Source: Erythrobacter litoralis HTCC2594
GTDB lineage: Bacteria; Pseudomonadota; Alphaproteobacteria; Sphingomonadales; Sphingomonadaceae
DNA length: 64,000 nt
Direction: 5' to 3'
Assembly (NCBI RefSeq): GCF_000013005.1
Contig: NC_007722.1
Coordinates: forward strand, 2,175,501 to 2,239,500
The position numbers and the translations under genes are program-made. Position 1 is the first letter of the stretch, and the number at the start of each line of letters is the position of its first letter. Positions 10,612 to 31,311 of the stretch are shown here, one piece after another. Under the pieces are notes generated by a model. It saw only the letters and a program-made list of their open reading frames with translations. It ran no database searches and had not been told where the DNA came from.

Positions 10612-10723
10612 AATTTACGCTGAATGCGCGCAACGTAGCATCCAGCTAGCTTGTTGTATCGGTTCGTACCTTAAAAAAGAAGGGGCGAAGGGATCATATG
10701 CGTCGAACGGTGCGGAAACATCG

Positions 10724-11653: not shown

Positions 11654-11654
11654 G

Positions 11655-12209: not shown

Positions 12210-12220
12210 CGAAATTCTCC

Positions 12221-14523: not shown

Positions 14524-14689
14524 TATCGGCGAGCGATTTCGCCGACGCTGGACGCTCTAGACTTCACCCGAATGTTCGGCAAGCATGAGCTTGCATAGTC
14601 GAGCGACCAATCAGCGCGCTCACTCGGGAGCTTGAAGAACGGATGGCTGGAAGAACTATCGGTGCTGTAACGGCGGACTTAAGTTGGTA

Positions 14690-15202: not shown

Positions 15203-15249
15203 GCGGGCCATTCGCTTCAAGGTAGTTTCGAGCAGCCGGCGCACGGCGA

Positions 15250-15534: not shown

Positions 15535-15688
15535 GGGATCAGAACCTTTCGATTGCTTACAACAATCCCGCCGACCGCTGAGCCGTGTGGGCGATGCGGT
15601 CGGGCAGGCAAAAAGGTTCGTGAGCGTGATAGCCAATCGGGCGCGGAATGGAAGCCCCGCTCGCAGCTTTCGATGAAAGCGCGCTCTT

Positions 15689-16594
15689 CTAGCGTTCGAG
15701 CTGACGCATCAGATACCCCGCGCCTGCCGGCGTGACATTCACAGCGATCGCGAGCTTGTTGCGTGTCAGCGAAGGCAGTGCGACCCGCAGCTCGGCCGCT
15801 TCGGCGAGCCGACTGCGCCTGGTCCGCTGGAAACGCGTGCGCAGATCGCCCACATCCCGCTCCATCCGACAAAGCGACCGATAGGCGGCGGGAGCTTGTT
15901 CGGCGATGCAGTCCGCGACCGCCGCGGTCCATTCCTTCGCCGAACCGCACAGGAACTTCTGTCGCGGTACCAGCGAGGGAAGCGTATGCGCCGACAGTCC
16001 TGACCGCCGCAACATGGCCGGGACCATGAGGTAGGCGAGCCAGGCCTTGGGATGGTCGTGGTTGAAAGCGATCTCACGGCCGTCCGGTAGCCAAGCGACC
16101 AGGCGGGTGTGATCGGCGGACCTGTCGATCAGTCGACCCATCTCCGCCATGCGTGCGCCGATCGAGGCGAGCGTAGGTTCGAGGTCGGGTTCTTCCGCCA
16201 TCCGTCGCAGCGCCCGCCACAGCGGGCCGTAGTGCACGAGATCGGCATTCGCCCAGATCGCCGCTTCGCGCTCCGGATCGATCAGTGAACCAAGCAGACG
16301 GCGGACTTGGCGGGCGTGCGGACCTCGGTCCGGTTCGAGACTCTCGAGGAAGTAATGGACGATCGCGACGACGCTCAGCGGATCGTTGCGCCCTTCGCCG
16401 CTACGGGGCGGCAAACCTGAACCGGCGAACCAGGCTTCGATATGGTTGGCGTCGATCGGCACGCCGGCGTTGCATGCGGATCTGGCGGCGCCCTCGAAAC
16501 GCGCGCGGATGGTCCAGGCGACCCGCGCCGGGCTATGGGCGAGGCGCCCGTCGAGCCTTCCGAGCTCGAGGAGAGGGTCTGTCGTTGCAGGCAT
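15689..16594 (-). CDS. DUF1612/RHE_PE00001-like helix-turn-helix protein
   Basis: The 301-residue protein resembles plasmid-borne rhizobial proteins of the DUF1612 type. It has an N-terminal helical region (LLELGRLDGRLAHSP), a middle part with DPLSVVAIVHYFLESLE, and a C-terminal helix-turn-helix (LPSLTRNKLAIAVNVTPAGA). It is divergent from a tyrosine recombinase, and a perfect 12-bp inverted repeat lies between the genes. It may regulate or assist that recombinase. Family naming is from memory and not verified; a DNA-binding role is inferred from the C-terminus and the context. Confidence 0.6.
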   Translation of the reverse strand: MPATTDPLLELGRLDGRLAHSPARVAWTIRARFEGAARSACNAGVPIDANHIEAWFAGSGLPPRSGEGRNDPLSVVAIVHYFLESLEPDRGPHARQVRRLLGSLIDPEREAAIWANADLVHYGPLWRALRRMAEEPDLEPTLASIGARMAEMGRLIDRSADHTRLVAWLPDGREIAFNHDHPKAWLAYLMVPAMLRRSGLSAHTLPSLVPRQKFLCGSAKEWTAAVADCIAEQAPAAYRSLCRMERDVGDLRTRFQRTRRSRLAEAAELRVALPSLTRNKLAIAVNVTPAGAGYLMRQLER

Positions 16595-16692
16595 CGTTTT
16601 CTCGAAAACCCTAACGAACGTAGCCGCCTATAGATTCCGCGCGAAAGCAAAATGGTACGTTGCTTTCCCTCTCTCGTACGGTCCGTGCATAG

Positions 16693-16721
16693 ACATGTGA
16701 TAAGGAGAACTTATCACATGT
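16693..16721. promoter_or_regulatory. perfect palindrome in divergent promoter region
   Basis: ACATGTGATAAG (16693-16704), five spacer bases, then CTTATCACATGT (16710-16721). It lies 98 bases upstream of the DUF1612-like gene and 36 bases before the recombinase gene. It is either an operator for one of the two products or a recombination core site. Confidence 0.65.
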
Positions 16722-16757
16722 TGCGGAGTGTGCTGTTTGAGTTAGTTTTATGCCGGC

Positions 16758-17960
16758 ATGTCCGATATCTCGCCCCCCTCCGCGTTGCCCGGTAGCGCTC
16801 TCGCCGCGCTCGAAACCGACCTCGCGCTCGCGCTACGCGCGCCGAATGTCGCCGTCGATCGCGAACTGCTCGCCGCTTACGTGGAGGCGGCCGCGCCCAA
16901 TTCGATCCGCGCGCTGCGGCAGGATGTCGAGGCGTTCGACCTGTGGTGCCGCCGCAGCGACGCTCGCGCGTTTCCGGCAACGCCCGGGATGGTCGCGGAC
17001 TGGCTGAAGCATCGGGCGAGCGAGGGTGCCGCGCCCGCCTCGCTGGTGCGGTACAAAGCATCGATCGCCAAGGCGCACCGGCTGCTCGACCTCGACGATC
17101 CCACCAAGCACGAGATCTGCCGGCTCGCGATCGCGGCGCATCGCCGCAATGTCGGCTCACGGCAAAAGCAGGCGCGGCCGCTGCGATTTCGCGGCGCGGT
17201 CAAAGATCCGGTGCAGGCCACACCGCGCGGCATCCATATCCGCGCGATCCTCGGGGCCTGCGATAATACACCCACCGGGCTGCGCAATCGCGCGCTGCTC
17301 TCGGTCGCCTACGATACCGGCCTGCGCGCGAGCGAGTTGGTCGCCGTCGCAGCCGAGGATATCGTCGAGGCGCTCGATCCCGATGCACGTCTACTGCGGA
17401 TCGGGCGGCACAAGGGCGACCAGGAGGGTGAAGGCTCGACCGCCTACCTCTCGCCGCGCAGCGTACAGGCGCTCCAAGCTTGGCTGCATGCCGCCGACAT
17501 CAGCGAGGGGCCGGTGTTCCGGCGCGTGATTGTGCGGCGCTACGCCGATCGGCCAGCGCGCAGGCGAATCGATCCAAATACAATCTCAGGGCGCGCGATC
17601 TGGGATCCGCGCAAGTTCGCGGCGAAGGCAGCGGTTGCGGCGCGGACTGAATACAATGTGGGCGAGAAGGCACTGCACCCCGGCTCGGTCACGCCAATCG
17701 TGCGTGGCATGATCGCTAGCGCAATCGATGCGGGCGCGTTCGGCGATCTCGACAAAGAACAGGCGAGGAAATTGGTCGCAGGATTCAGTGCACATTCGAC
17801 GCGGGTCGGGTTGAACCAAGATCTGTTTGCGATCGGCGAAACGCTCGCCGGGATCATGGATGCGCTGCGGTGGAAGTCGCCAAAGATGCCGCTAGCATAC
17901 AACCGCAATCTTGCTGCCGAAGCTGGCGCAGCAGGTCGGCTACTATCGAAGCTAGATTAG
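16758..17960 (+). CDS. tyrosine site-specific recombinase
   Basis: This integrase (400 residues) shows an N-terminal SAM-like core-binding domain (about 35-130) and a catalytic domain with the full residue set: Arg190 (GLRASEL), Lys219 (GRHKGD), His346 and Arg349 (SAHSTRVG), Trp372 in place of the second His, and the nucleophile Tyr381 (MPLAYNRN). It is divergent from a DUF1612-like gene, with a palindrome between them. No att repeats were found around it. The pair may be the remnant of a plasmid or another integrative element inside the larger island. Confidence 0.88.
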   Translation: MSDISPPSALPGSALAALETDLALALRAPNVAVDRELLAAYVEAAAPNSIRALRQDVEAFDLWCRRSDARAFPATPGMVADWLKHRASEGAAPASLVRYKASIAKAHRLLDLDDPTKHEICRLAIAAHRRNVGSRQKQARPLRFRGAVKDPVQATPRGIHIRAILGACDNTPTGLRNRALLSVAYDTGLRASELVAVAAEDIVEALDPDARLLRIGRHKGDQEGEGSTAYLSPRSVQALQAWLHAADISEGPVFRRVIVRRYADRPARRRIDPNTISGRAIWDPRKFAAKAAVAARTEYNVGEKALHPGSVTPIVRGMIASAIDAGAFGDLDKEQARKLVAGFSAHSTRVGLNQDLFAIGETLAGIMDALRWKSPKMPLAYNRNLAAEAGAAGRLLSKLD

Positions 17961-18288
17961 GTCGTTCGGCGAGCGGTGTTTCGCAGCTGACACCGGCAGC
18001 TTTGCGCCCTCATATTGGACATTTGATCGGTCTCGTCGCGATCCTGAAACCTGCCACTGGACTAGGTAGTAGCTGAGGGCGGCTTCGTGCCCTCAATTCG
18101 GAAATCGGAGATACAAATGCCGATCTCGAAAGCCGACATTCTCCAAGTGCAAGGCAGACTGTTCGCGTAAGGCTTTTGACAACACCAGATCAATGATCTA
18201 GCAGTTTGACTTCGGGCACTTATTCCGGCGCCCGGTAAGGCAATGCGCCCAAGTCCGGCTCGATGAGCTGTGTGCGAAGGACGCGTTG
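17961..18288. other. non-coding stretch before chrA
   Basis: No full gene is present. A 17-codon frame (18117-18170, starting MPISKAD, with GGAG before it) may be the truncated start of a lost gene. I looked for the chrB regulator that often precedes chrA and did not see it. Confidence 0.4.
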
Positions 18289-19683
18289 ATGAATTCTCCC
18301 GCTAATTCAGGTTCCGTAGAACAAACTCCGATCCCGTTTTCCGATGGGGTGCGTGTCTGGGCGCGCATAGCCGCGTTGAGCTTTGGTGGGCCAGCCGGCC
18401 AGATCGCGGTGATGCACCGCATTCTAGTCGATGAAAAGCGCTGGATCGGCGAGAACCGGTTCCTGCATGCGCTCAATTACTGCATGCTCCTGCCCGGACC
18501 GGAAGCCATGCAGCTTGCCACCTATATTGGCTGGTTGCTCCACGGCGTTCGCGGTGGCCTCGTCGCAGGATGCCTGTTCGTCCTTCCCGGCTTCCTCAGC
18601 ATTATGGCGCTTAGCGTGCTCTATGCCAGTTTTCAGGAGGCCAGCTTCGTCCAGGCGATTTTCTTCGGCATTAAGGCGGCGGTGCTCGCCATAGTCATCG
18701 AGGCCCTGCTGCGCATCGGGAAAAGGGCATTGAAAACTTGGCCCATGTATCTGATTGCCGCCGCAGCCTTCGTGGCGATATTCGCATTCGATGCACCTTT
18801 CCCGCTGATTATCGCGGCCGCCGCGCTGGTCGGTTTTCTTGGAGGGCATTTCGATCCTGCACGCTTTCTGGTCATTCGCGCCCGTGAAACGACCGAGGAC
18901 GGGGAGAGCGAGCCGGAAGCCGTGCTTCATACAGGCGGTATGGCGAAAGCGCAGCCTACATGGCGCGGAGCAGTCCGCACGGCCTTGATCTGGGGCAGCA
19001 TCTGGGCAGCTCCCATAATTGCGCTGATCCTTCTTGTTGGCCCAAATCACGTGTTCACGGAACTGGCGGTTTTCTTCTCCAAGCTCGCGGTCGTGACATT
19101 CGGGGGCGCGTATGCCGTGCTGGCCTATATGGCGCAGGAAGCCGTGCAGACGCATGGCTGGCTTGCCCCCGGTGAAATGCTCGATGGGTTGGGCATGGCG
19201 GAGACCACGCCGGGTCCACTGATCCAGGTCGTCCAATTCGTGGGGTTCATGGGGGGATATCGCGAAGCAGACATGTTAGGCCCGGTGGCTTCGGGCATCG
19301 CGGCTTCGGTCATCGTCACGTGGGTCACGTTCGTGCCGTGCTTCCTATGGATTTTCCTTGGTGCGCCATTTATCGAAAAACTGCGCGGCGTGAAGCTTCT
19401 GACAGCGGCGCTTTCGGCGGTGACGGCAGCAGTCGTCGGTGTGATCCTAAACCTTGCCATCTGGTTTGCACTGCACGTTGCCTTCGCACGGCTTGACGAG
19501 GTTCGAGGTTACGGCGCACGCCTGCTCGTGCCGGACTTCGCCACGATCGACGTCGCCTCCGTCGTCATTGCCGCTGCGGCCCTGATCGCCATGCTGCGCT
19601 TCAAGATCGGGATGTTGCTCGTTCTCTTCGTGAGCGCACTCATTGGGTCGCTGTATTACCTCGCAATGATGGCTGGCACCTGA
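18289..19683 (+). CDS. chrA: chromate transporter ChrA
   Basis: This is a long-chain CHR-family inner-membrane protein (464 residues) that exports chromate using the proton gradient. Two homologous halves are visible: SFGGPAGQIAVMH and LLPGPEAMQLATYIGW in the first, TFGGAYAVLAYMAQEAV and TTPGPLIQVVQFVGF in the second. Each half has about five or six membrane helices. The ATG at 18289 follows AAGGA. A DUF1259 protein gene follows 23 bases later, so they are probably co-transcribed. The chrB regulator is absent nearby. It is likely cargo of the surrounding island. Confidence 0.92.
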   Translation: MNSPANSGSVEQTPIPFSDGVRVWARIAALSFGGPAGQIAVMHRILVDEKRWIGENRFLHALNYCMLLPGPEAMQLATYIGWLLHGVRGGLVAGCLFVLPGFLSIMALSVLYASFQEASFVQAIFFGIKAAVLAIVIEALLRIGKRALKTWPMYLIAAAAFVAIFAFDAPFPLIIAAAALVGFLGGHFDPARFLVIRARETTEDGESEPEAVLHTGGMAKAQPTWRGAVRTALIWGSIWAAPIIALILLVGPNHVFTELAVFFSKLAVVTFGGAYAVLAYMAQEAVQTHGWLAPGEMLDGLGMAETTPGPLIQVVQFVGFMGGYREADMLGPVASGIAASVIVTWVTFVPCFLWIFLGAPFIEKLRGVKLLTAALSAVTAAVVGVILNLAIWFALHVAFARLDEVRGYGARLLVPDFATIDVASVVIAAAALIAMLRFKIGMLLVLFVSALIGSLYYLAMMAGT

Positions 19684-19706
19684 AATCACATCCAAGGAGA
19701 ACTAAG

Positions 19707-20624
19707 ATGAAGCAATTACGCAGAACATTGTTCGTCGGCGGCTTGGCTCTATCGCTATCAGCGATGTCGGCGGCTCTTCACGCGCAGGATAATCTCGGCA
19801 ATCTCGAGGCACTGATTTTCGAGGCATCGCACTCGGAGGTCACCATGACCGACGATGGGGTCGCACGCATCGGTTGGACGCGCGCCGACGTGCCGGTGAT
19901 GGTCGACGGCATGCGCCTCGATCCCCCGGCAGGTCTCGGCTCATGGGCTGCCTTCAAACCCGTCGATGGCGGAGTGATGGTCATGGGCGACACGGTCGTA
20001 TTCGAGGATGAGATAACAGCCGCGATGGACGCTGCCCTCGCCAACGGGTTGACCGTCACCGCGCTGCACAATCACTTCATATTCGACGATCCGCCGGTCT
20101 ATTTTATGCATATCGGCGGGCATGGGGAAACCGCCAAGATGGCAGCGGGTGTAAAAGCCGTTTGGGATGCCATCAAGGAAGTGCGCGCCGCCTCGCCGAC
20201 GCCGCAGCGCAGTTTCGGTGGCATGACGCCGGATGCAAACGGCACGATCGAAGCCCTGGCGCTGAGCGAAATCTTGGGCACCGAGCCAAGCATCGCCGAT
20301 GGTGTCGTGAAATACACCTTCGCTCGCCAAGGCCGCATGCACGGCGTTGAGATCGGTGGTTCGATGGGGCTTACGACCTGGGCGGCGTTCTCGGGCACCA
20401 ACGACCTTGCCGCCGTGGATGGTGACTTCATCATGACCGAGGACGAAGTCCAGCCCGTGCTCCGCGCACTGCGCGAGCGGGATATCCATATCGTAGCATT
20501 GCATAACCACATGATCGGCGGTGAACCGATGTTTTACTTCCTCCACTACTGGGGAATGGGTCCAGCAAAAGAGCTTGCAGCGGCGATTGCTGCTGCCCGT
20601 AACGCACAGGCCGAAACCGGATAG
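19707..20624 (+). CDS. DUF1259 periplasmic protein next to chrA
   Basis: The 305-residue protein has a signal peptide (cleavage after ALHAQ near residue 27) and two repeats of the DUF1259 (LpqO-like) unit. Each ends in a His-rich motif: ALHNHFIFDDPPVYFMHIGG in the first half and ALHNHMIGGEPMFYFLHYWG in the second. These His residues suggest metal binding. Its ribosome site is AAGGAGAAC. It directly follows chrA, a pairing seen in chromate-resistance clusters, so a periplasmic role in chromate tolerance is likely but unproven. Confidence 0.85.
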   Translation: MKQLRRTLFVGGLALSLSAMSAALHAQDNLGNLEALIFEASHSEVTMTDDGVARIGWTRADVPVMVDGMRLDPPAGLGSWAAFKPVDGGVMVMGDTVVFEDEITAAMDAALANGLTVTALHNHFIFDDPPVYFMHIGGHGETAKMAAGVKAVWDAIKEVRAASPTPQRSFGGMTPDANGTIEALALSEILGTEPSIADGVVKYTFARQGRMHGVEIGGSMGLTTWAAFSGTNDLAAVDGDFIMTEDEVQPVLRALRERDIHIVALHNHMIGGEPMFYFLHYWGMGPAKELAAAIAAARNAQAETG

Positions 20625-21103
20625 GCGCAACCATTCCGATAAAAATCAGTACGGCAGCGATCGCTTGCACCTCATTGCGACAGGCATTGTCTTCGAAATG
20701 GCAGGGAACGTGAGTTATGTCGCTAGCTGGTGGGCATGTCTTTGAATGCGATGTGGATGGGACACGGCGCCGCGATTTGAATCGCGACCGGATTGTCCGT
20801 TTTCTTAGGAAAGCTCCCGAAACCAGACTGTCTCGAAGCGGCCCATGATTTGTCATCGAGTGCAGGCGTGCTGACGGTCGAACTCGGGAAGTCAATATCG
20901 TATTGATGATGCCCGAAAATTAGCGTGGAACGCCGACGTCGCTGGACCTTAAATAGCCTTTCAGTGCAGCGGACAACATGGCCGCAACGCAACCACCACG
21001 TGGGATAAGCTACGCCAGATTTCCTCCGCTTGGACAATTGGGCGCGATCGCCCAAGCAAGTTAGCTGTGGAACAGAAGCTGCAGCGTGCCCATATGCTAA
21101 GCC
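20625..21103. other. non-coding stretch with a possible gene remnant
   Basis: No intact gene is recognised. On the minus strand 20723-20950 there is a protein-like fragment ending GFGSFPKKTDNPVAIQIAA and then a Cys-Pro segment. It has no credible start or family match, so it is probably a decayed gene. Confidence 0.35.
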
Positions 21104-22624
21104 ATGTTGAAGACCCTTCGTATCGCACGCCGGGACCGGAAGCGCTTGGAGGAACTATTCAGCGTCACTTCCCGCTATGGACTCGGCCTTCTGCTGGCGC
21201 GGATAGGGCTGGACCGGACGGGCAGCGACGATGCCGGCGACGGGTCGTCACATAGCCTGCCTCGGCGGACCCGCCTTGCCATGGAAGAGCTTGGGCCAAC
21301 CTTCGTGAAGCTCGGCCAGATCCTGGCGACACGCGCCGATCTCCTATCTCCGGAATGGATCGCCGAACTCGAGCAATTGCATAGCAAGGCGCCGACGCTT
21401 CCCTTCGAGGAGTTGCGACCGATTGTCGAGGAGGCGCTTGGTGAGGCGCCCGAATGCACCTTTGCGGAATTCGATACAGAACCGCTGGCGGCGGCCTCCA
21501 TGGCGCAGGTCCATCGTGCGACGCTGCACGACGGGCGCGCGGTGGTGATCAAAATCCGCCGGCCCGGCATTCGTCCGAGGGTGGAGGCTGATATCCGGCT
21601 CCTTGCGCATATTGCGACCCTTGCGGAACGCGGCAGCACCGAAGCCAAGCGCTTCGGACCGAGCCGGATGATGCGGCAGCTTGCGGACGCGATGGTCGAG
21701 GAACTCGACTTCACGAATGAAGCGCGCAATGCTGATCGTCTGCGGACGGATTTCGCGAACGAGCCCAGTGTCGTTGTGCCCGAAATCCACTGGGAATGGA
21801 CGTCCGAGACGTTGCTCGTCATGGATTACATAAACGGTGTGCCGCCGAGCAATGCGCAGGCTCTGGTCGCTGCAGGGCTCGATCCGACCAGAATAGCAGC
21901 GCTGGGCGCCGACATGGTGCTCGACATGATATTGGTGAACGGCCGGTTCCACGGCGATCCGCACCCGGGGAACCTTCTCTGCCTGCCGGGCAACCATATA
22001 GCTCTGCTGGACCTGGGCATGGTTGGTTATGTATCTCCGCGCAGGAGAGAGGAATTCGTCAGCTTCGTGCAAGCGCTCAGCACTGGCAGCCCCGCGCAGC
22101 TCGCCGACGTGCTGACGCGGTGGTCAGTGGGCGACGACGTTCCGGCCGACCGCGTGCTCTCCGCATCCGAACGGCTGATCGCGCGCCATGGCAGCGGTCG
22201 ATTGGTTCTGGGCGCCATGGTAACCGATTTCCTAGGGCTGATGCGCGACGAGCGCATGACGTTACCACCCGATCTTCTCCTGATCTTCAAGGCGCTGATC
22301 ACGATGGACGGCGTGTTATCGAAAATTGAACCGGATTTCGACCTGACGCATGCCATGCGACGCTCTTCGTTTCGAATCGCGCAAGCGCGGTTGTCGCCCG
22401 AGCACTGGGCTCCCGTTCTGCAGGGCGTCGCCTGGGAATTGCTCAAGATCGGAGATGATGCGCCGCGCCTGATCCGGGCAGCGATCCGCCGGTTGGAGCA
22501 AGACAGAACGCCGCCGGCTTCATCGCCTTCGGATCGCAGCCGCGCGAGTGCCGACATTCGCTGGGTTGCAGCTGCAATCGTCTCAGGCGCCGTGATCATG
22601 GCGATAGCGCCCTGGTTTTATTAA
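21104..22624 (+). CDS. AarF/UbiB (ABC1) family atypical kinase
   Basis: The 506-residue protein carries the family marks: KLGQ (69-72), the Ala-rich nucleotide loop LAAASMAQVHRA (129-139), Lys150 in VVIKIRRPG, HGDPHPGN (catalytic loop, near 285) and DLG. A C-terminal hydrophobic helix (VAAAIVSGAVIMAIAPWFY) would anchor it in the inner membrane. Family members assist ubiquinone synthesis or handle lipids with ATPase activity. This copy stands alone in accessory DNA, not with ubiE or ubiJ, so it is probably an extra copy. Function here is not determined. Confidence 0.85.
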   Translation: MLKTLRIARRDRKRLEELFSVTSRYGLGLLLARIGLDRTGSDDAGDGSSHSLPRRTRLAMEELGPTFVKLGQILATRADLLSPEWIAELEQLHSKAPTLPFEELRPIVEEALGEAPECTFAEFDTEPLAAASMAQVHRATLHDGRAVVIKIRRPGIRPRVEADIRLLAHIATLAERGSTEAKRFGPSRMMRQLADAMVEELDFTNEARNADRLRTDFANEPSVVVPEIHWEWTSETLLVMDYINGVPPSNAQALVAAGLDPTRIAALGADMVLDMILVNGRFHGDPHPGNLLCLPGNHIALLDLGMVGYVSPRRREEFVSFVQALSTGSPAQLADVLTRWSVGDDVPADRVLSASERLIARHGSGRLVLGAMVTDFLGLMRDERMTLPPDLLLIFKALITMDGVLSKIEPDFDLTHAMRRSSFRIAQARLSPEHWAPVLQGVAWELLKIGDDAPRLIRAAIRRLEQDRTPPASSPSDRSRASADIRWVAAAIVSGAVIMAIAPWFY

Positions 22625-22963: not shown

Positions 22964-24760
22964 ATGAGCTTCATTCAGCTGCAGCGCGAACCGGGCATCC
23001 ACTACCTCGCCGGGTATCAGAACTTCCGCACGTCGCCGGCTTTCGAACATCTTCTCGAGGCCAAATGCTTGCTCCGAAGCATTACGACCGCAGGCGCCGT
23101 CGGATCGTCGCTTCACGTACCGCTGTCGGATTTCGCGATGTTCCCGATCGGCACGTTGTTCGGCTCGGGTAAAGCGATGATGCTGCGCAATCGCGGTCGC
23201 CGACGAACCCGCAGAACGATCCTTCTGGGCGACGAAGTCGAGATTTGGGACTTCGAGCGCCCGACCCTCGTCAGTCCGCAGAAGCACGCCAAACCCTTCG
23301 ACCTGTCGATCCGCCAAACCGAGAAGGTGTTCATCGACCAGATCGAGGCCCTACACCCCCTCGGTTTGGCCCACGGCGAGCAGTTCCGGTTCATCTGCTC
23401 GGGGGTCAGCTTTCTGCTCGATACGCTTTCGCTGCGCTCCATCGTCTCGCAGAAGAGCCTCGCGGGCATGTTCGTCGACGAGGCGGAGACCGGAATCGAC
23501 GAGAACGGTACCTACGTCATCACGCCGTTGCGTCCGTTTCAGAACGCGACCGCGACGCTGCAGATCGCGCTCCTGCTCACCAATCCCGACCTAGCGGATT
23601 ACATCCGTTTCTTCTTCCGGCGGGTCGGTGCGGCGATGCGCGGGGAACCCGCCGGGTCGGAAGGGGCGCTGACGTTCCGGGACGCCATGGACTGCACGAT
23701 CGAAACCGAGCCGCTCGCGATCGGCCCGCCAGGAAACGAAAGAACGGTCGACTATTGCGACCGGATCATCGCCGACCACCGCAAGCCGAATTTCAGGGAT
23801 ATCGTCGTCCGCATCCGCAATACGCGGGCGGACGAGCAGATCGAGCTGATCGAGGAGCTCCGCACCGAGGCGGAGCGAGAGAAGCTCAGGGTAGCGTCGA
23901 GCACCAAGGTCAAACGCTACCCGGCGGACAAGCGCACCGTTCGCCTTGGCCGCCTGGACGGCGATTTCGGGCGGCTGTTCCCCGAGTTCGCTAAGCTTGC
24001 CATGCGCTTCGATCGGCAAACCGTCCCCGCCGCGGAAGGCGATAGCCGACCGTCAAGGTTCGATCCTCAAAAGGATCGTCCCGAATTCGTAACGCCGATC
24101 GTGTCGTCGGGGCTACCCGAACCCGGCGGCAAGGTCCCCCGGGCGGAGAGCGGGCCGGTCGAGACCGTCGTCTTTGAACGCCCGAGCCTGCCGACCCGGT
24201 TCCTCGCCACGAGCGATGCGCCGGGCCTCGAAGCGCGGATCGCGAAGCTCGACGACGTGCCGCTCTTGATGCGGGAGTTCTTCCTCGCGGGCTACTATAT
24301 GACCGAGCATCGCTCGGCGACGAGCCTGCCGGAATACGATCTCGGACGCGGCGAAGAAGTGCTCTATCGGCTCCCACCGTCATGGGGTGGGTTCGCCGCG
24401 CCCGACGCGAATGGTCTCACCCGCTTTGCGGCCGCCGTCCCGCTCGCCTTCGACCACGGCATAGTGTGGGCCATCGAGATCCTCAGGAACGATGCCAGCG
24501 AGGCATTCGCCATGGGGCTCGTCGCGCAGTTCGACCGCGACGACGGGCTGAGCTTTCTTGGCCGGGCGCTGCGCAGCGTCTGCGATCGCGTCGGTCGGCG
24601 GCGCGGCGACGATCCATCGGGCACCTTCCCGCGCGCCGACTTCCTCGACACGCGGATCGACACCGTCGTCCACAAGAAGACCGTCTGGGACGCGAGGACG
24701 CTGGCGCAGGTCATCCCGGCACGGGCCGAATTGCTCCTGTCGACCGAGCGGAACTTCTAG
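22964..24760 (+). CDS. large protein of Tn7-like module, TnsE-like layout
   Basis: The 598-residue protein has no motif I can assign to an enzyme. Its layout resembles TnsE of Tn7, compared from memory. There is an N-terminal beta-rich part, a helical stretch with FDLSIRQTEKVFIDQ and ICSGVSFLLDTL, then TATLQIALLLTNPDLADYI, a variable Arg/Glu linker (about 290-400), and a C-terminal segment GIVWAIEILRNDASEAFAMG resembling TnsE's LLEVDAS region. In Tn7, TnsE directs insertion to replicating DNA or plasmids. The gene stops in a CTAG shared with the convergent tniQ stop. It also matches tniE of AbaR backbones by position. Homology is unproven. Confidence 0.5.
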   Translation: MSFIQLQREPGIHYLAGYQNFRTSPAFEHLLEAKCLLRSITTAGAVGSSLHVPLSDFAMFPIGTLFGSGKAMMLRNRGRRRTRRTILLGDEVEIWDFERPTLVSPQKHAKPFDLSIRQTEKVFIDQIEALHPLGLAHGEQFRFICSGVSFLLDTLSLRSIVSQKSLAGMFVDEAETGIDENGTYVITPLRPFQNATATLQIALLLTNPDLADYIRFFFRRVGAAMRGEPAGSEGALTFRDAMDCTIETEPLAIGPPGNERTVDYCDRIIADHRKPNFRDIVVRIRNTRADEQIELIEELRTEAEREKLRVASSTKVKRYPADKRTVRLGRLDGDFGRLFPEFAKLAMRFDRQTVPAAEGDSRPSRFDPQKDRPEFVTPIVSSGLPEPGGKVPRAESGPVETVVFERPSLPTRFLATSDAPGLEARIAKLDDVPLLMREFFLAGYYMTEHRSATSLPEYDLGRGEEVLYRLPPSWGGFAAPDANGLTRFAAAVPLAFDHGIVWAIEILRNDASEAFAMGLVAQFDRDDGLSFLGRALRSVCDRVGRRRGDDPSGTFPRADFLDTRIDTVVHKKTVWDARTLAQVIPARAELLLSTERNF

Positions 24761-25746
24761 CGCGCGTTCGAGGAACCAGGGCGAAGATAGGTGTCGAGAA
24801 CGTGGCGCAGCGCGAAGGGTGTCTGGACGCCCGGCTCCTCCGGCACGATCCAGCTTGCCCAGGCGCGCGCCTCGCCGCACGGACCGACGAGGCCGAACGG
24901 CCATCCCCGCAGCAGCCGGCTGACCCCGCGCATCACGCCGTGCGCAGCGCTGACGGTCATGGACCGGATACTGGGGTTCGCAGTCCTGTAGTCGAGGTCG
25001 ATCTCCCCGATCGAAGGATGCAGCGCTTCGCGGACGCGCTTGCCCCAGCGTTTGGCAGCGATCGCTCGGAAGAGCGCCAGCTGGATAGCGAAGAAGGCGA
25101 TCGGATGGATCCCGTGCAGATGGGGCCAAGCCACCGCGCGTCCGTCTAACACCGCTTCGTTATGCGCCTGCAGGACGAGCACGCTCGGAGCGGCGATGGA
25201 CGCGGAAAGGGCGGAAAGGTCGAGGCCGCACCCGTCGCAATGGCGGAAGCCCGAGCGGTGTGGCTGGTATGGGGCATCGCAGTCCGGGCAGGCGTCCATC
25301 AGCACGGCGGCGTGCTTCGTGCATGCCGGAAAGAGCCGCAGCCGCCAGGTCAGCGGCAAATAGGGGGTGTCGTCGGCGAGGCAATGTGGACAGAAGGCCT
25401 GCCCGTGCGCCTTGCGGATCCGGTGGCGCACGCCGAGTGGCACCACCATGAACGACTGGTTGGCGCCGGAGATGGATTCGGCGAGAACGCCTTCGTAGGC
25501 GCCGAGCGTCGTGCGCCGGCAACGCTCGAGCGGTGTTCCCGTCTTCACCGCCAGAGCTCGGACGAGCTCCGGCGATGCGACGAGATCGCCATCCCTGGTC
25601 CAGAACTCGAGGCCGGGCGCGAGTTCCTTCATCAGCGAGTGGTGCTTGGTACCCTTTGCCGCGGCAATGCGGATCAGCCAGGAGCTGACCGATTCCCGTG
25701 GCAATGGGCTTGGACGGATATGCCAGCGGCTCACGCCGGTTCGCAT
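24757..25746 (-). CDS. tniQ: TniQ/TnsD-family target-selection protein
   Basis: The 329-residue protein starts RWHIRPSPLPRESVSSWLIR, the typical TniQ opening. It carries zinc-finger ligands: CPHC (119-122), C142/H145, CPDC (153-156) and CDGC (170-173). In Tn7-like elements TnsD/TniQ binds the attachment site and recruits TnsC, so this protein is the candidate reader of comM. It is shorter than TnsD of Tn7 (about 508) and similar in size class to TniQ of Tn5053/Tn6022. The start at 25746 lies inside the tnsC end (16-base overlap), indicating coupling. It is part of the tnsB-tnsC-tniQ operon. Confidence 0.85.
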   Translation of the reverse strand: MRTGVSRWHIRPSPLPRESVSSWLIRIAAAKGTKHHSLMKELAPGLEFWTRDGDLVASPELVRALAVKTGTPLERCRRTTLGAYEGVLAESISGANQSFMVVPLGVRHRIRKAHGQAFCPHCLADDTPYLPLTWRLRLFPACTKHAAVLMDACPDCDAPYQPHRSGFRHCDGCGLDLSALSASIAAPSVLVLQAHNEAVLDGRAVAWPHLHGIHPIAFFAIQLALFRAIAAKRWGKRVREALHPSIGEIDLDYRTANPSIRSMTVSAAHGVMRGVSRLLRGWPFGLVGPCGEARAWASWIVPEEPGVQTPFALRHVLDTYLRPGSSNAR

Positions 25747-26654
25747 TCCCTGGACGTCTTCACTTCGAGCCGATCGATGACGTCGCAGGCGCGCTCGGAA
25801 AGCGGTACCCACGCCATGTCCTCGAGGGTCTTCGCGTCGATCACCTCGCGGCCGCTTTGGATGGCCGTACGCGCCGCGAGAAGCATCACCCGCCGGATAT
25901 GGCCGATGACGTGATCTCCCTTCTCGAGGATGGTCTCGACGAGCTTGGGATCAGCCACCACATGCGACGTCTTGCGCAGCGGCAGACGCACCTCGAGGTT
26001 GTGGATCAGCACATTCGCCTCGTCGCCGCGTTTCCATGGCGGCAGGACAACCTGCTCGAAGCGGCGCTGCAGCTGCGGATCGTCGTTCAGGATATCGACG
26101 CCCGGCGGCGTTCCGAAGAGAGCAACGCCGCAGCCGCAATCCTCGCCGATCGACTTCACCATGTTCTTGAGCGCCTCGCGGTTGCGATGGGTGCCGTTGG
26201 CAAGATCCTGGAACTCATCGATGAGAAGCAGCCTAGTCTGCATTGTCCTCAGGACCGCGTAGACCATCGAGGTGAGATGCGAGGTCGACCATCGGAGGTT
26301 GAAGGGCTCACTTACGTAGCGCAGGATCCGGATCGCGAACTCGCGAACCGACGCTTCGCCCGGCATCGACACCCGCACCACGTCGGCACGGTCCGCATCG
26401 CCCATCATGCCGGTTTGCACCGGATAGAGCGACGCAAAATGCTTCGAGATGGTGCTCTTGCCGTTGTAGCTGCGCCCGAACACCGCGATGCTGTGCTCGT
26501 GCGGCTCGGGAGCCTCGAGGATCGCCCTGAGGCGATCCTCGATCTCCATCATGCGCGGATGGTAGATGGTGTCGGGCTCGGCGAGATAGGCGAGCCGAGT
26601 GGCATCGTCCGCGAGGCGAAGGTCGTCGATGGATGTGATGGTGTTGCAGGTCAT
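25731..26654 (-). CDS. tnsC: TnsC/TniB AAA+ ATPase
   Basis: This ATP-dependent regulator (307 residues) links target selector and transposase. Walker A is GRSYNGKST (60-68) and Walker B is LLLIDEF (142-148); VALFGTP downstream fits sensor 1. The ATG at 26654 overlaps the tnsB stop (ATGA), so I chose it over the long upstream extension of the same frame, which is a shadow of tnsB. The protein forms the middle of the tnsB-tnsC-tniQ operon. Its size is nearer TniB (about 300) than TnsC of Tn7 (555). Confidence 0.92.
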   Translation of the reverse strand: MTCNTITSIDDLRLADDATRLAYLAEPDTIYHPRMMEIEDRLRAILEAPEPHEHSIAVFGRSYNGKSTISKHFASLYPVQTGMMGDADRADVVRVSMPGEASVREFAIRILRYVSEPFNLRWSTSHLTSMVYAVLRTMQTRLLLIDEFQDLANGTHRNREALKNMVKSIGEDCGCGVALFGTPPGVDILNDDPQLQRRFEQVVLPPWKRGDEANVLIHNLEVRLPLRKTSHVVADPKLVETILEKGDHVIGHIRRVMLLAARTAIQSGREVIDAKTLEDMAWVPLSERACDVIDRLEVKTSRECEPA

Positions 26655-28414
26655 TGGACGGCTCCACTGGAGGGAAGGATGGTGATGCTGGCGGGGTCGA
26701 TCCTGACGACCGGGACCGGCGGTAGCGGCGACTGCTCGGGCGCCGGCAACCAGTTCCGACCACGCTCGCGCTTGACAGCGTTCTGGGCGATCTTGCGCTG
26801 CTTCGCCCGGTCGAGCTTGGACTTCGGGTTCACGACCCTGGCGTGGCGGGCAGCATCGGCGCGCTCCTTCTCGATGATGCCCAGAATACCCGTTGCCGTC
26901 ACCCGGCCGCGTTTTCCGAGCTTGGCCTTGAGGTCGGCCCGCGCCCGTTCCCACTCGGCGACGGTGATCGCCGCGCCCTCGGTGAGCGCGTCGCGAAGCT
27001 CGATGTAGCGACCGTTGCGAGGGTCCTCGACGAACGCGCGGCTGACGTCGGCGGGTTCGCGCTTGACGTTGAGCATGGTCCCCTTGGCGGCGTTCAGCAA
27101 AGGCTGGAGCTCGCGCGCGGTGTAGCTGAGGTAGCTGACGCGAAACCCGTACTTCTCGAGCTTGCGCTTCTCGGTCTTCAGGAAGTCGAGATAGAAGGCC
27201 TGCGGATCGTCGACGCGCCGGGGATCGCCATATTGGGCGACCCCCAGGTTCCACTTCTCCGCCGGCGTCATCCCCAGCGCCGGATGGATGCGGTACGGAT
27301 ATTCGCCAACGAAGTAGCGGACCATGTTCTCGAGGTATTCGTTGAGGGTCAGACTCGCGGTTTGGATAGGATCGATGCGATCCTTCTCCCGCCTCGTCGA
27401 GCTGAAGATGGTGTTGCCCGGCAGCTTGCGAGTTTCCGTCATCGCGGTCCCGATCATCCGCTCGACGATCCCGCCATGATGCGGCTGCGAGCGGTGCGAG
27501 AGGTCGATGCGCCACTTCCCGCATCCGCGATGGAAGGATTTCGACGTGAAGTCGACGCCGCGGTCGACGAAGATCGCCGAGGGTACGCCGAACCACGGCC
27601 AGTCAATCCCATCGATGCCCTTCGCCGCGAGCCAGCCATCCTTGGGTAGGCAGGCGATCGCCATCGCCTCGGCCAGTTCCTCGACGCTCGGATATCCGAA
27701 CGTCACGTGGATACCGAGCGGCAGGCGCGAGAACTCGTCGACCACCATGGTGAAGGTCGGGCGACCGAGGGAGATCCACAGCTCTTCGGAGATGAGATGC
27801 ACATCGCTGTAAGTGTGGTCGATCTGCACCCGCTCGAGCGGATAGGTGCAGAGCGGGGTCGAGCCCTTGTCGCGGTCGTATTTGTCCGCGGCCGCCTGTG
27901 CGCCGTGCTTGTGCGCGTAACGGACACGTACGTCGAGAGCCTCCCAGCGGCGGCGGATGGTCCGATCGGACGGCGGCTTGAGGCCCGCCTTCGCGCAGGC
28001 CTTCCGCACGTTGTCGATGTAAACAGTGACATGCTGGCCCTTGTAACAGCGCAGCCTCAGGAACCTTTTGAGCTCGGCCTCGGAGATGGCCTCGACCGCC
28101 GGATCGAGCTTCGAATGCCAGGGGCGCTTGATCGGCACCTTGGAGAGCCCCAGAGCGTGCCCGGCTTCTTCGTAAGCCTTCAACTTGCGGTAGAACTTAG
28201 ATTTCGACCATCCGAGCATCCGTGCGGCTTTCTCCGCGTTCTCACTCGTGCGCTTGCCGCAACGGAAGGCGTCGATGACGCCCGCTTCTAAGCTGAGGCG
28301 GTTCCAGTCGTCGTCACTGATCGTGTCGATCGTGATCTTGCGATCGTTGCCGGCACACGTGAGTTTCGCGGCGCCCTTGGGCAGGGCGGGGATGATTTTC
28401 TTGAGATCGGTCAT
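26651..28414 (-). CDS. tnsB: TnsB/TniA DDE transposase
   Basis: The 587-residue protein has an N-terminal helix-turn-helix region (ENAEKAARMLGWSKSKFYRK, about 59-78), an rve integrase core with catalytic Asp199 (VQIDHT), Asp284 (IFVDRG) and Glu318 (GGIVERM), and a C-terminal Mu-type beta domain followed by a basic tail (KLDRAKQRKIAQNAVKRERG) that would contact TnsC. It joins the 3' transposon ends to target DNA. The ATG at 28414 has GGAG at the right distance. It starts an operon with tnsC and tniQ. Confidence 0.93.
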   Translation of the reverse strand: MTDLKKIIPALPKGAAKLTCAGNDRKITIDTISDDDWNRLSLEAGVIDAFRCGKRTSENAEKAARMLGWSKSKFYRKLKAYEEAGHALGLSKVPIKRPWHSKLDPAVEAISEAELKRFLRLRCYKGQHVTVYIDNVRKACAKAGLKPPSDRTIRRRWEALDVRVRYAHKHGAQAAADKYDRDKGSTPLCTYPLERVQIDHTYSDVHLISEELWISLGRPTFTMVVDEFSRLPLGIHVTFGYPSVEELAEAMAIACLPKDGWLAAKGIDGIDWPWFGVPSAIFVDRGVDFTSKSFHRGCGKWRIDLSHRSQPHHGGIVERMIGTAMTETRKLPGNTIFSSTRREKDRIDPIQTASLTLNEYLENMVRYFVGEYPYRIHPALGMTPAEKWNLGVAQYGDPRRVDDPQAFYLDFLKTEKRKLEKYGFRVSYLSYTARELQPLLNAAKGTMLNVKREPADVSRAFVEDPRNGRYIELRDALTEGAAITVAEWERARADLKAKLGKRGRVTATGILGIIEKERADAARHARVVNPKSKLDRAKQRKIAQNAVKRERGRNWLPAPEQSPLPPVPVVRIDPASITILPSSGAVQ

Positions 28415-28557
28415 TTCAACGTACTCCTTCTTTCGAAAATGGAGCACGAGCCGGAAAAAGGGTGCGCGCGACCGGCGCCAAGCGCGCGATGGCGCTTGAC
28501 TCGGGGCGGCTTTTCGGCGATGACAAGGGTGCTTAGGGGTCCTCGTATCCCGAAAAG

Positions 28558-28584
28558 GCCTGGCTCTTCGGAGTCAGGCTTTTT
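28558..28584. terminator. bidirectional hairpin terminator
   Basis: GCCTGGCTC, loop ttcg, GAGTCAGGC (28558-28579), followed by five T on the plus strand and preceded by AAAA. It lies between the small gene at 28627-28872 and tnsB, separating their minus-strand transcripts. Confidence 0.7.
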
Positions 28585-28626
28585 CCATTTCGTGCTGGTG
28601 AAGTTTAGTTCTCAGGCACTGGCTGT

Positions 28627-28872
28627 TTACATAATTTTCTCCTTGTCGATCGCGCGCAGCCACTCAGCCACGTCCTGGGTGAAGGCGAAGGTTCCGCTCC
28701 GGTCCGGAAGCTTGAACACGCGAACGCCGAGGCGTCCGCGCTCCTTGGCTTTGCGAAAGGCTGCCGCACTGGGAAACCCGAGGGATTTCCATAGCGCCTC
28801 GCCGGTCAGAAACGGTCCCGATCCATCAACCAGGTGTTCCGCCAGCTTGGTACCCGACGCCTTCGAAGCCAT
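28627..28872 (-). CDS. small putative DNA-binding protein between tnsA and tnsB
   Basis: The 81-residue protein from the ATG at 28872 (GGAAGAG ribosome site) has a segment that looks like a winged or MerR/AlpA-type helix-turn-helix: GEALWKSLGFPSAAAFRKAK then GRLGVRVFKLPDRSGTFAFT. It is divergent from the gene at 28999, with an imperfect palindrome between them, so it may be the repressor of that promoter or an accessory factor of transposition. I know no such gene in classical Tn7. The family assignment is tentative. Confidence 0.55.
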   Translation of the reverse strand: MASKASGTKLAEHLVDGSGPFLTGEALWKSLGFPSAAAFRKAKERGRLGVRVFKLPDRSGTFAFTQDVAEWLRAIDKEKIM

Positions 28873-28945
28873 GTTGTCGCTCTTCCTTTCCGAACCGGAG
28901 AATCGCCAGTTGTCGTGCATGTCACGGCCGTCACGCTTGTCCAAA

Positions 28946-28971
28946 CGACGTTATTGGGGCCAAAATCGTCG
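28946..28971. promoter_or_regulatory. imperfect palindrome between divergent genes in the Tn7-like module
   Basis: CGACGTTATTGGGGCC (28946-28961) is followed by AAAATCGTCG, giving outer arms CGACG/CGTCG and an inner ATTGG/CCAA. The core ATTGGGGC-CAAAA recurs near the transposon end (30590-30602, ATTGGGGCAAAAC). It could be an operator or a TnsB-like binding site. Confidence 0.4.
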
Positions 28972-28998
28972 CTTGACCCGCCTGCGAATCGAAGAGCG

Positions 28999-29769
28999 AT
29001 GGCATATCGGAAAAGAGCGTCGACCGAATGGATCCTGACCCGGTGGGTCATGGCCTGTGTCGACTTTCGTGCGACGCCCGACGACGCGGAATGGATCAAA
29101 ACCGGGCTCAATTGCGGGAAGGATACCTTACGGCATTATCGCTTGGGCGAGCGTCGTATTCGCAGCGATGTGCCAAACTCCGTTCTCGATCGGTTGGACG
29201 GACGCTTTCCCGGAACAGCGGCGATGCTTCGCGGACCGATGGCGCAGATCCTGATGCGCCGCGAATTGGCACCGGGCGGTTTGAGGGTAGCGATCAGGCA
29301 GCTGTCCGATCCGTATCGCACATGCCTGCTCGCGCTCGGCTACGGTGCAGATCGGAGCGAGATCGATCCCGCCGTCCGGTTAGAAACGGCGCTTGATTAC
29401 CTGCTGCGATACAGCGCTTTCGAGACGCTCGAGGCAATCGTCTTCATGCTCGCATGGTGCGACGAGATCGGCGATGAGATTGCGTGGACGACGATCTGCG
29501 GGCGATATCGGAAAGCGCTCCCAAACATGCTGTTCGAGGGCATTCCGGAACATCATCACCCCCTGCTCGACGCGATCGACGACTACGCTCGCACCATCGA
29601 GTTCCGCTATGCGCGGCGGGTCCGATCGAAGCAAAGCTGGCGCACGGCCGTCCCGAAGGCCAGGAAGATCCGCAAGCAGGGTGCAATCGAGGCCCAGCAC
29701 GACTGGGAAGCTCTGCCACGAGATTTCACTCTACGCATCAATCCGCAGGCGAAGGACGTCGACCGTTAG
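28999..29769 (+). CDS. hypothetical protein between tnsA and tnsB
   Basis: The 256-residue product starts at the ATG at 28999 (MAYRKRASTEW). It is mostly helical, with many Arg and Trp residues, a segment FRATPDDAEWIKTGLNCGKD, and a very basic region (RRVRSKQSWRTAVPKARKIRKQ). I recognise no family and see no catalytic motif, membrane segment or signal. It lies within the transposition module and points opposite to tnsA and tnsB, so it is more probably part of the module's biology than random cargo. The basic C-terminal part suggests nucleic-acid binding. Confidence 0.55.
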   Translation: MAYRKRASTEWILTRWVMACVDFRATPDDAEWIKTGLNCGKDTLRHYRLGERRIRSDVPNSVLDRLDGRFPGTAAMLRGPMAQILMRRELAPGGLRVAIRQLSDPYRTCLLALGYGADRSEIDPAVRLETALDYLLRYSAFETLEAIVFMLAWCDEIGDEIAWTTICGRYRKALPNMLFEGIPEHHHPLLDAIDDYARTIEFRYARRVRSKQSWRTAVPKARKIRKQGAIEAQHDWEALPRDFTLRINPQAKDVDR

Positions 29770-29800
29770 ATCTCGAGGCAAGGACCACGCTCAATAAAGG

Positions 29801-30526
29801 TCATCGCAGAAAGACCCGCCGACGCGACCCCCGCCTCAGGATTGCCTCCTCATCCCACGTGCGCGTGATATCGAACCATAGTTCATCGATGGCACATGCG
29901 TGCAGCGCCGCCGAAATGATCTCGCCCCTCTCATATGCGTAACGCTCGGCGTTCGCGATTACCGACCCGAGCGTCGCCGGAAACTCGCCAAGCCTGCCCG
30001 ACAGTATGAGGTCGAGCAACGATCGCTCCGGTCTGTGGCTCGCGCGGTCCAGAATTGCTTTCGCATTCGGCAAACCCTTCTCGATCAGCTTCTCGTCGGT
30101 AACCAAGAGGAACGAGCAGTCTGTCTGTTCCCGGCACCAGCGCATCATCGCGATATGCGCTCGTCCTGCGGCCGACGCGCTTCCCGCCGCCGCAATATGA
30201 TCGGCTTCACGGCGCTCCTTTACCTCGACGATGTAGCGGTAGCGCTGGCCCTCGCGATCATTGATCTCGACGAGATAGTCAGGTGTATAGACACGTGTCC
30301 GGTTGTCGACGAGATCGCGGAATTCGATGGAAAAGGGCTCCCATGAAATGTGCCGCACCTCGTTCGCAAAGTCGCAGAGTTGGACGAATCCACGCTCGAT
30401 CGAGGATTGGAAGGCGACCCTATTTGCGCCATTTCGAAAGCTGTAGAAGCCGGTTTCGGCGCTGGTGCGCGCGGGCTTTTTGCTTCGCGCAGAGGGAGTT
30501 ATCCGGACGTGGTCAACTAGTCTCAC
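29801..30526 (-). CDS. tnsA: TnsA-like endonuclease
   Basis: This 241-residue protein carries the restriction-endonuclease-like core of TnsA: Glu44 (SSIERGF), Asp83 (YTPDYLVE) and Glu101-x-Lys103 (VEVKER). In Tn7, TnsA cuts the 5' ends of the element while TnsB cuts the 3' ends, giving cut-and-paste transposition. The start is a GTG at 30526, about 110 bases from the transposon end. The C-terminal domain (ILSGRLGEFPATLGSVIANA) would interact with TnsC. The frame is intact. It is separated from tnsB by two unrelated genes, unlike in Tn7. Confidence 0.85.
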   Translation of the reverse strand: MRLVDHVRITPSARSKKPARTSAETGFYSFRNGANRVAFQSSIERGFVQLCDFANEVRHISWEPFSIEFRDLVDNRTRVYTPDYLVEINDREGQRYRYIVEVKERREADHIAAAGSASAAGRAHIAMMRWCREQTDCSFLLVTDEKLIEKGLPNAKAILDRASHRPERSLLDLILSGRLGEFPATLGSVIANAERYAYERGEIISAALHACAIDELWFDITRTWDEEAILRRGSRRRVFLR

Positions 30527-30639
30527 CGACTATGACCACGCCGATTTCGAGCCGGCGAAATGGACGCGCCGTCTCACAAAAGGGCTCGAATTGGGGCAAA
30601 ACGCACCCGCCTGAGTCGCATCATTAGTGGAAGTTATCA
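30527..30639. other. comM-proximal end of the Tn7-like element
   Basis: About 113 bases lie between the tnsA start and the first comM bases. Read from comM inwards it begins TGATAACTTCCACTAATG. Related short blocks (TGTGAGACGGCG and GGTGAGACTAGT on the minus strand) may be TnsB sites. No TGT terminus is visible, so the exact end is uncertain by a few bases; the junction with comM falls at GGCGGC (30640-30645). Confidence 0.5.
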
Positions 30640-31311
30640 GGCGGCCTCAAGGTGAAGCCGGGCGAGGTCTCTCTCGCGCATCTTGGCGTGCTGTTCCTCG
30701 ACGAATTGCCAGAATTCCAGCGCGCCGTGCTCGACAGCCTGCGCCAGCCGATCGAGACCGGCCAGGTCGATGTCGCCCGCGCCAATGCGCATGTGACCTT
30801 TCCCGCGCGGGTGCAGCTGGTGGCGGCGATGAACCCGTGCCGCTGCGGGCACCTCGGCGATCCCGCGCTCGCCTGCAGCCGCGCCCCCAAATGCGCCATC
30901 GACTATCAGGCCAAGATCAGCGGGCCGATGCTCGACCGGATCGACCTGCACGTAGAGGTCGACCCCGTCAGCGCCGCCGACCTGGCCCTGCCCCCGCCCG
31001 CCGAAGGCTCGGCCGAGGTCGCCGCAAGGGTCGCCCAAGCCCGCGCCCGCCAGACCGCGCGTTTTGAGCAGACCGGCGCGCGCACCAATGCGGAACTGGA
31101 TGGCGAGGCGCTGGAGACCTTCGCCACGCCCGACGAGGCAGGCCGCAAGCTCCTCATGCAAGCCGCCGAAGCGATGCGCCTGTCCGCCCGCGCCTACACG
31201 CGGATGCTGCGAGTGGCGCGAACAATTGCCGATCTGGCGGGAATGGAGCGGGTGGGGCGCATCCATGTGGCTGAGGCGCTGAGCTATAGACGGCAGGCGC
31301 CTAGGGCTTAG
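30640..31311 (+). pseudogene. comM: comM/yifB Mg-chelatase-like AAA+ protein, 3' part only
   Basis: The frame begins at GGCGGC (Gly-Gly of the family's VGGG) and continues LKVKPGEVSLAHLGVLFLDE, with Walker B FLDELPEF, the ARANAHVTFPARVQLVAAMN sensor region, a CRCGHLGD/CSRAPKC zinc-like motif and the C-terminal Mg-chelatase domain to VAEALSYRRQ. ComM is normally about 500 residues, with an N-terminal Lon-protease-like domain and Walker A; both are missing because the Tn7-like element breaks the gene. ComM is a branch-migration helicase needed for efficient natural transformation, so recombination of incoming DNA may be impaired. Confidence 0.9.

Follow-up and report, generated by a model that had tools for sequence, protein, structure and literature searches.

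A Tn7-like transposon with no recognizable TnsF occupies a shared site in comM of Erythrobacter litoralis and other Alphaproteobacteria

The window analyzed here, a stretch of 64,000 nucleotides from the single-contig, 3.05 Mb genome of Erythrobacter litoralis HTCC2594 (C1:2175501-2239500), holds the right-hand part of a Tn7-like transposon that splits comM and in which no TnsF, the protein that selects comM for Tn6022, was found. The element is 47,153 bp long (C1:2158987-2206139). Its right limit falls at position 30639 of the window and its left limit 16.5 kb beyond the left edge, so it is larger than the interval 22964-31311 covered by the initial annotation of this DNA. That annotation had placed the cut in comM at GGCGGC, position 30640, and had proposed a search beyond position 1 for the 5′ half of the gene and the distal transposon end. 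Reading of the junctions bore out the cut, the 3′ half restarting exactly there, and both missing parts were located: the 5′ half starts at C1:2158145 (detected with PF13541, the N-terminal domain lying ~17 kb to the left of the window) and the distal end is the left limit just given. With a slash marking the junction, the left one reads ACCGGCGGCGG/TGTCAAAAG and the right one TTATCA/GGCGGCCTC. The target duplication is GGCGG (5 bp; left copy at C1:2158982-2158986, outside the window, and right copy at 30640-30644), and the element ends are of the form TG..CA (left TGTCAAAAG..., right TTATCA). Motifs resembling GAGAYT, which are putative TnsB sites, occurred 16 times in eight ends of 150 bp each, drawn from four elements, whereas 1000 base shuffles yielded 1.1 on average and never more than 5; the exact motif is present once in each end of the window element. 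Both the 5-bp duplication and the ends with spaced candidate TnsB sites agree with a Tn7-like transposon. Comparison with uninterrupted genes, also proposed in the initial annotation, showed comM as a single frame across the insertion stretch in the three congeners examined (G002, G096, and G158; the incomplete G208 was left out).

The transposition genes adjoin the 3′ half of comM (Table 1). As the initial annotation had stated, TnsA, TnsB, TnsC, and TniQ are encoded in that order with intact catalytic residues, all on the minus strand. The catalytic motifs of the first three proteins align with their Tn6022 counterparts, and TnsC keeps its GKS and IDEF motifs. A DDE transposase (TnsB) accompanied by TnsC and TniQ, with the endonuclease TnsA as partner, places the element among Tn7-like transposons. 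The four-gene description was correct as far as it went, and the module also includes a fifth transposition gene, tnsE, and two conserved open reading frames (ORFs) between tnsA and tnsB. The C-terminal part of the 598-aa product of tnsE has the TnsE fold according to a fold comparison of its predicted model, and a sequence search of the PDB with the TnsE alignment gave no match up to E 1. One locus labeled as Tn7 TnsB (L199) had a Tn5053-type gene order and yielded no TnsE. TniQ has eight invariant Cys/His residues that resemble zinc ligands in an alignment with 16 relatives, and its predicted structure (mean predicted local distance difference test score, pLDDT, of 75) consists of N-terminal helices, a zinc-type region, and C-terminal helices, with no added domain seen.

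Table 1. Features of the comM-borne element; positions are those of the window unless given with C1.
Feature	Position	Strand	Evidence or remarks
Left transposon end, TGTCAAAAG...	C1:2158987		Outside the window
Cargo, continuing 16.5 kb further left	1..22624		CoA-transferase, split ArsP-like permease, TonB receptor, chromate transporter, DUF1259 protein, UbiB/ABC1-type kinase
Erythrobacter-type module, small ORF	15250-15636	-	
Erythrobacter-type module, helix-turn-helix/DUF1612-like ORF	15689-16594	-	Read by eye
Erythrobacter-type module, tyrosine recombinase, 400 aa	16758-17960	+	PF00589
tnsE, 598 aa, convergent with tniQ	22964..24760	+	Predicted fold
tniQ, 329 aa, proposed comM target selector	24757..25746	-	PF06527, E 3.5e-23
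tnsC (TniB), AAA+ regulator, 308 aa	25731..26657	-	PF05621, E 6.4e-56; start by KY5 comparison
tnsB, DDE transposase	26651..28447	-	PF09299, E 8.3e-6; D210, D295, E329
Small conserved ORF upstream of tnsB	28627..28944	-	Start probably internal, ~81-83 aa
Conserved ORF between tnsA and tnsB, 311 aa from first start	28834..29769	+	Without Pfam match
tnsA, endonuclease subunit, 241 aa	29801..30526	-	PF08722, E 9.7e-9; TPD and VEVK motifs
Right transposon end, inward reading TGATAACTTCC...	30490..30639	-	GAGAYT-like motifs, putative TnsB sites
comM 3′ part	30640..31311	+	PF01078/PF13335; TIGR00368 positions 287-499; junctions read

The search for TniQ relatives covered 397 genomes of the family, of which 18 matched (many of them weakly), 396 of the order (19 matched), and 385 of the class (9 matched), draws that overlap and include the genome of the window; GTDB contigs added four loci with TniQ relatives, and none was found in viral contigs. 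Ten copies without TnsF, the window included, lie at or next to the Gly-Gly-Gly codons that precede Walker B in comM (hereafter site A): those of the window, Erythrobacter sp. HI0063, KY5 (G498), UBA2510, S. abaci, G394, G486, G400, G340, and G1236. The offset is identical in seven of them, 1 bp further in G400 and G340, and 14 bp further in HI0063. Both junctions were read in nine copies (on two contigs in G486) and the right junction only in G1236. Orientation is identical in all ten, with the tns end towards the 3′ half of comM, i.e., the fixed orientation of an att site. Because nine further copies interrupt comM at this position, each in another genome, the insertion is more than a chance event. 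The presence of a Tn7-like element in comM is confirmed. The initial annotation had also surmised that the target is the one used by Tn6022-type elements. In agreement with this, G909 and G811, which belong to other classes, each carry a TnsF-bearing element (the TnsF of G811 is cut by a contig end) whose right junction falls 1 bp from that of the window in the same orientation; these two are the Tn6022-type elements for which the junction was read. Outside site A, TniQ relatives were present in two copies on plasmid pWH01K, as a fragment in G320, and at L010, where comM falls outside the stretch.

As far as they were read, the ten copies have TnsB, TnsC, and TniQ in common. A fuller ORF search recovered TnsA in G340, G400, and KY5; none was detected in G394 or G486. 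No ORF of the size of tnsE lies beside tniQ in G340, G394, or G1236, and the contig of G486 ends at that point. The complete element of G340 spans 7,014 bp and consists of TnsA, TnsB, TnsC, TniQ, a FolP-like gene, a DUF2293 gene, and small ORFs, so that TnsABC and TniQ are its only recognized transposition genes. Its FolP-like product (L069, 8331-9257) is a pterin-binding enzyme carried as cargo.

The frequency with which comM is broken in other genomes served as a control. The C-terminal domain of ComM was found in 324 of 337 genomes of the order, and frames shorter than 400 aa occurred in 22 of 149 genomes among the matches listed (150 rows, counted by hand), some of which are frame slips or contig ends. 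A total of 19 regions from 18 genomes were read further (mostly 8-10 kb, four of 1-6 kb), with G000, G400, and G160 (insertions already known) and G551 (at a contig edge) set aside. By tblastn, no TnsA, TnsB, TnsC, TniQ, or TnsF was detected in these regions, several of which are short or cut by contig ends, and no region was broken at this site, three of them ending at or near contig edges. G346 and G518 match ComM from end to end, and G137 resembles a frame slip. Thus, comM is often broken, yet in the regions read this site belongs to Tn7-like elements. According to the initial annotation, comM truncated at another position in relatives lacking tns genes would speak against its interpretation. 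Such truncations do exist to the letter, and we do not count them against the finding because the 19 regions, as far as they extend, show neither a break at this site nor tns genes.

The elements have also moved recently between species. Over 10,422 + 6,693 bp compared (17.1 kb), the elements of the window and of HI0063 show no mismatch, and their comM flanks are only 79% identical. The two insertions lie 14 bp apart and have different duplications (GAAGC in HI0063 versus GGCGG in the window), so they represent separate events, and spread by recombination of the comM locus is rejected for HI0063. WH01K carries two copies on the mobilizable plasmid pWH01K. Copy 1 measures 30,005 bp (64,654 to 94,658) and has the duplication AGCGC; for copy 2, no left end was located. 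Compared with the window, the DNA of copy 1 is 99.7% identical in TniQ and TnsE, 92.9% in TnsC, 89.1% in TnsB, and 87.1% in TnsA, with a sharp change near position 25,890, for which reason TniQ and TnsE appear to have been exchanged as one block. This plasmid copy is consistent with a TnsE-directed plasmid pathway.

In 2023, the choice of comM by Tn6022 was traced to a new selector, TnsF. This degenerate tyrosine recombinase is bridged by TniQ and required for insertion in comM (PMC10293859). A TnsF profile built from six proteins matched none of the 14 alphaproteobacterial genomes with such elements (ten with this site, three with a site at residue ~394, and WH01K) and did match the two control genomes, G811 and G641, of which G641 shares its genus with one of the profile proteins. 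When a single TnsF was used as query, eight of 398 genomes of the phylum matched, the sole one of the class being a weak hit of 73 residues. Besides the TnsF controls, no ORF with at least six CxxC motifs was present in the loci read. Together, the profile search and the CxxC check revealed no TnsF hidden in the cargo or elsewhere in the genome. A guide of the type used by clustered regularly interspaced short palindromic repeats (CRISPR) systems was likewise rejected, as the longest matches between element and comM in G000, KY5, and G340 did not exceed those obtained with shuffled comM; no cas gene occurs among the named genes, and no search was aimed at cas genes across the whole cargo. TnsF is therefore apparently dispensable at this comM site: no TnsF was found, the gene set of G340 is minimal, and the shared genes point to TniQ. 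In the open-access literature, supplements aside, we found neither protein-directed targeting of comM without TnsF nor an alphaproteobacterial Tn7-like element in comM, and an earlier mention is possible.

The initial annotation had called for trees of TnsB and TniQ with Tn6022/AbaR and other Tn7-like families, and had suggested that TniQ may recognize its target in a conserved way in different classes. These trees have 28-30 rows and long branches, and the groups tested were named after the trees had been seen, which weakens the tests. For TnsB, nine site-A rows and Tn402-like TniA stand on one side of a branch (91/96) that has the TnsF-bearing rows and G1236 on the opposite side. A single TnsB clade of the site-A core and the TnsF rows was rejected by the approximately unbiased test (p-AU 0.007), and the site-A core alone as a clade was not (p-AU 0.435). 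For TniQ, nine site-A rows form a cluster of 12 rows (88/84) together with L010 and both copies from pWH01K, and the TnsF-bearing rows lie separately; a single clade made of this cluster plus G1236 was not rejected (0.124). A TniQ clade of the core with the TnsF rows was not rejected either (0.158), so that a common origin of TniQ is neither shown nor rejected. Conservation of TniQ target recognition across classes is not supported in that form, given that the Tn6022 selector is TnsF, not found here, and that the single TnsB clade was rejected. What stands of the initial interpretation is the Tn7-like element in comM, its second end, the intact congeners, and the shared target.

Several known systems share part of these traits. 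Tn6022/AbaR of Acinetobacter (TnsABC, TniQ, TnsF, and TnsE) resembles the window element in its TnsA, TnsB, and TnsC, short TniQ, opposite-strand TnsE, and comM target, but no TnsF was found here, TniQ has 371 aa in Tn6022 versus 329 aa in the window, and the proteins are ~27-30% identical where aligned; no near match to the Tn6022 tnsA-tniQ stretch was found in 5,426 E. coli genomes. Hence, of the traits of the Tn6022 family the window element has the insertion in comM and has neither a TnsF after TniQ nor a shared TnsB clade. Tn7, which uses TnsD and TnsE and targets glmS, is alike in the TnsE fold, the 5-bp duplication, the oriented insertion, and the existence of chromosomal and plasmid copies, whereas the window element lies inside a coding gene and has one short TniQ and no long TnsD that could be seen. 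Tn402/Tn5053 (TniA, TniB, TniQ, and resolvase) share with it the side of the TnsB tree on which the Tn402-like TniA stands, but the window element has TnsA, TnsE, and the comM target and, unlike L175, no resolvase gene beside tniQ. The tyrosine recombinase transposon Tsy, which carries TnsF, also targets comM and, in the passages of PMC10293859 that describe it, has another transposition enzyme and no Tn7 components. CRISPR-associated transposons of type I-B1 with a comM CRISPR RNA share the comM att site and a TniQ (PMC11406308); these are RNA-guided, whereas the window element shows no guide-like match.

On these grounds, our preferred reading, to which we assign a probability of roughly two in three, is that TniQ guides these elements into comM in the absence of TnsF, and that TnsE serves a plasmid pathway. 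The element would be a cut-and-paste Tn7-like transposon with two target pathways. TniQ would bind the coding sequence of comM, presumably around the Gly-Gly-Gly and Walker B codons, and load TnsC, which would then recruit TnsA and TnsB; insertion falls in the second and third Gly codons, with the tns end towards the 3′ half and a 5-bp duplication, and would involve no TnsF. TnsE may send the element to plasmids and thereby allow spread between cells. The short TniQ probably reads comM alone or with a host factor. As for the narrower proposition that a TniQ of ~325-330 residues, with neither TnsF nor a long TnsD tail nor a guide RNA, itself reads comM almost to the base, as a selector independent of TnsF in origin or exchange, we would put it at somewhat better than even. 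Several points weigh against this reading. TniQ is short and shows no added domain, and a small TniQ has been suggested as a hallmark of elements that use additional selectors (Faure 2023, PMC10293859), which is why we are cautious about TniQ as the reader. The TniQ of G1236 falls apart from the other nine of site A. TniQ relatives with ~26-35% identity occur in other settings, namely without comM beside them (G055 contig C3 and G411), at another part of comM, residue ~394 (G055, G160, and G164), and at four class-level loci that have another gene order, with TniQ before TnsA. Moreover, unread stretches of the elements of G394, G486, G1236, S. abaci, UBA2510, and HI0063 could hold another selector, given that the genome-wide test in partly read elements covered TnsF only and the ORF check covered frames of at least 80 aa.

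Another account, unlikely but deserving attention, is that TniQ is only a bridge and an unrecognized partner reads comM. This partner could come from the host; in Erythrobacter-type elements the small ORFs or the tyrosine recombinase could also fill the role, in the manner of TnsF. The shortness of TniQ would fit such a partner, as would the retention of the recombinase in the Erythrobacter-type copies read or searched, TnsF belonging to the same superfamily (PMC10293859). All three ORFs of the module at 15250-17960 are also present in KY5, UBA2510, and copy 2 of WH01K; copy 1 has the recombinase and part of the second ORF at the edge of its stretch, and HI0063 has a recombinase identical to that of the window on another contig. 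Yet neither the S. abaci stretch read nor the complete G340 element has a counterpart of the recombinase, and none was found in the G400 and G1236 genomes, the insertion place being the same in all four. The protein also lacks the Cys-rich region of TnsF, with R, K, HxxR, W, and Y kept as judged by eye. A relative with 60% identity elsewhere in the G340 genome (contig C182) leaves room for help in trans. The ORFs between tnsA and tnsB, in turn, are conserved in some elements (28834..29769 with 69% identity in KY5, 28% in UBA2510, and 82% in WH01K copy 1, and in two pieces in copy 2; 28627..28944 with 78% in KY5, 60% in UBA2510, and 85% in WH01K copy 2), but neither has a counterpart between tnsA and tnsB of S. 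abaci.

That TnsE, alone or with TniQ, selects comM is improbable. Its gene adjoins tniQ in Erythrobacter-type elements, and the two appear to have been exchanged together, being 99.7% identical in DNA to WH01K copy 1 when tnsABC reach only 87-93%. However, tnsE is absent from the complete G340 element and from beside tniQ in the G394 and G1236 stretches read, elements with a weakly similar opposite-strand ORF of comparable size hit another part of comM (site B), and TnsE of Tn7 acts on conjugating plasmids (PMC11406308). Still further from what we would expect, and very improbable, is that comM is simply a tolerated spot, dispensable and often broken, which elements reach by chance or recombination with little protein specificity. 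The short frames counted above and the presence in comM of elements with large serine recombinases and of an insert resembling an insertion sequence (IS) would suit that idea, but none of the 19 other comM regions read, three of them ending at or near contig edges, has a visible break at this site or tns genes by tblastn, and nine of the ten Tn7-like copies fall within 1 bp of each other with their own duplications, a sharing of base and orientation that contradicts it.

If TniQ is indeed the selector, the same comM spot is reached without TnsF by a short protein reading DNA alone; otherwise a further partner would take part. A compact selector made only of protein would have uses in DNA insertion. 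In addition, Tn7-like islands that disrupt comM and carry catabolic and metal-related cargo have recently passed from one sphingomonad species to another, and losing ComM may come at a cost for natural transformation.

Regarding the remaining genes of the element, the 15250-17960 module may possibly have a role in resolution or maintenance. The cargo to the left of the window includes genes of acyl-coenzyme A (CoA) degradation, and the named cargo overall comprises acyl-CoA/carbonyl catabolism, TonB receptors, and a chromate transporter. The ArsP-like permease gene (6573-8881) is in two Pfam pieces, and the opposite-strand ORF between them resembles an IS transposase by eye. At L004, a cargo gene (6378-7307) scores above the NCBIfam cut-off for 3,5-dioxohexanoate:acetyl-CoA acetone transferase and lies beside acyl-CoA catabolism genes.

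Other interruptions of comM were also observed. A separate Tn7-like group splits the gene at residue ~394 in G160, G164, and G055 (L067, L068, and L065). Its TniQ has 401 aa in both G160 and G164, and an ORF on the opposite strand measures 559 aa in G160 and 585 aa in G055. Seven Sphingomonadales comM genes show a boundary at residues 197-216, at Walker A (L180 7432-9003, L188 7512-9197, L181, L183, L189, L196, and L197). Large serine recombinase-like ORFs adjoin comM in the two of these inserts that were read, and this is possibly a second recurrent att site. On the chromosome of WH01K (G130:C1, L115-L117), comM is split at residue ~215 by a prophage-like insert of ~39 kb, in which a serine recombinase-type reading frame begins at the junction. 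G454 has three pieces of the comM C-terminal domain (L185 and L186), and the UBA2510 assembly (G999, L158) has two N-terminal ChlI matches 1.3 kb apart. Finally, a 3.6-kb insert with an IS1595-like transposase, as read by eye, lies directly after Walker B of comM in G304 (L195, 5817-9431).

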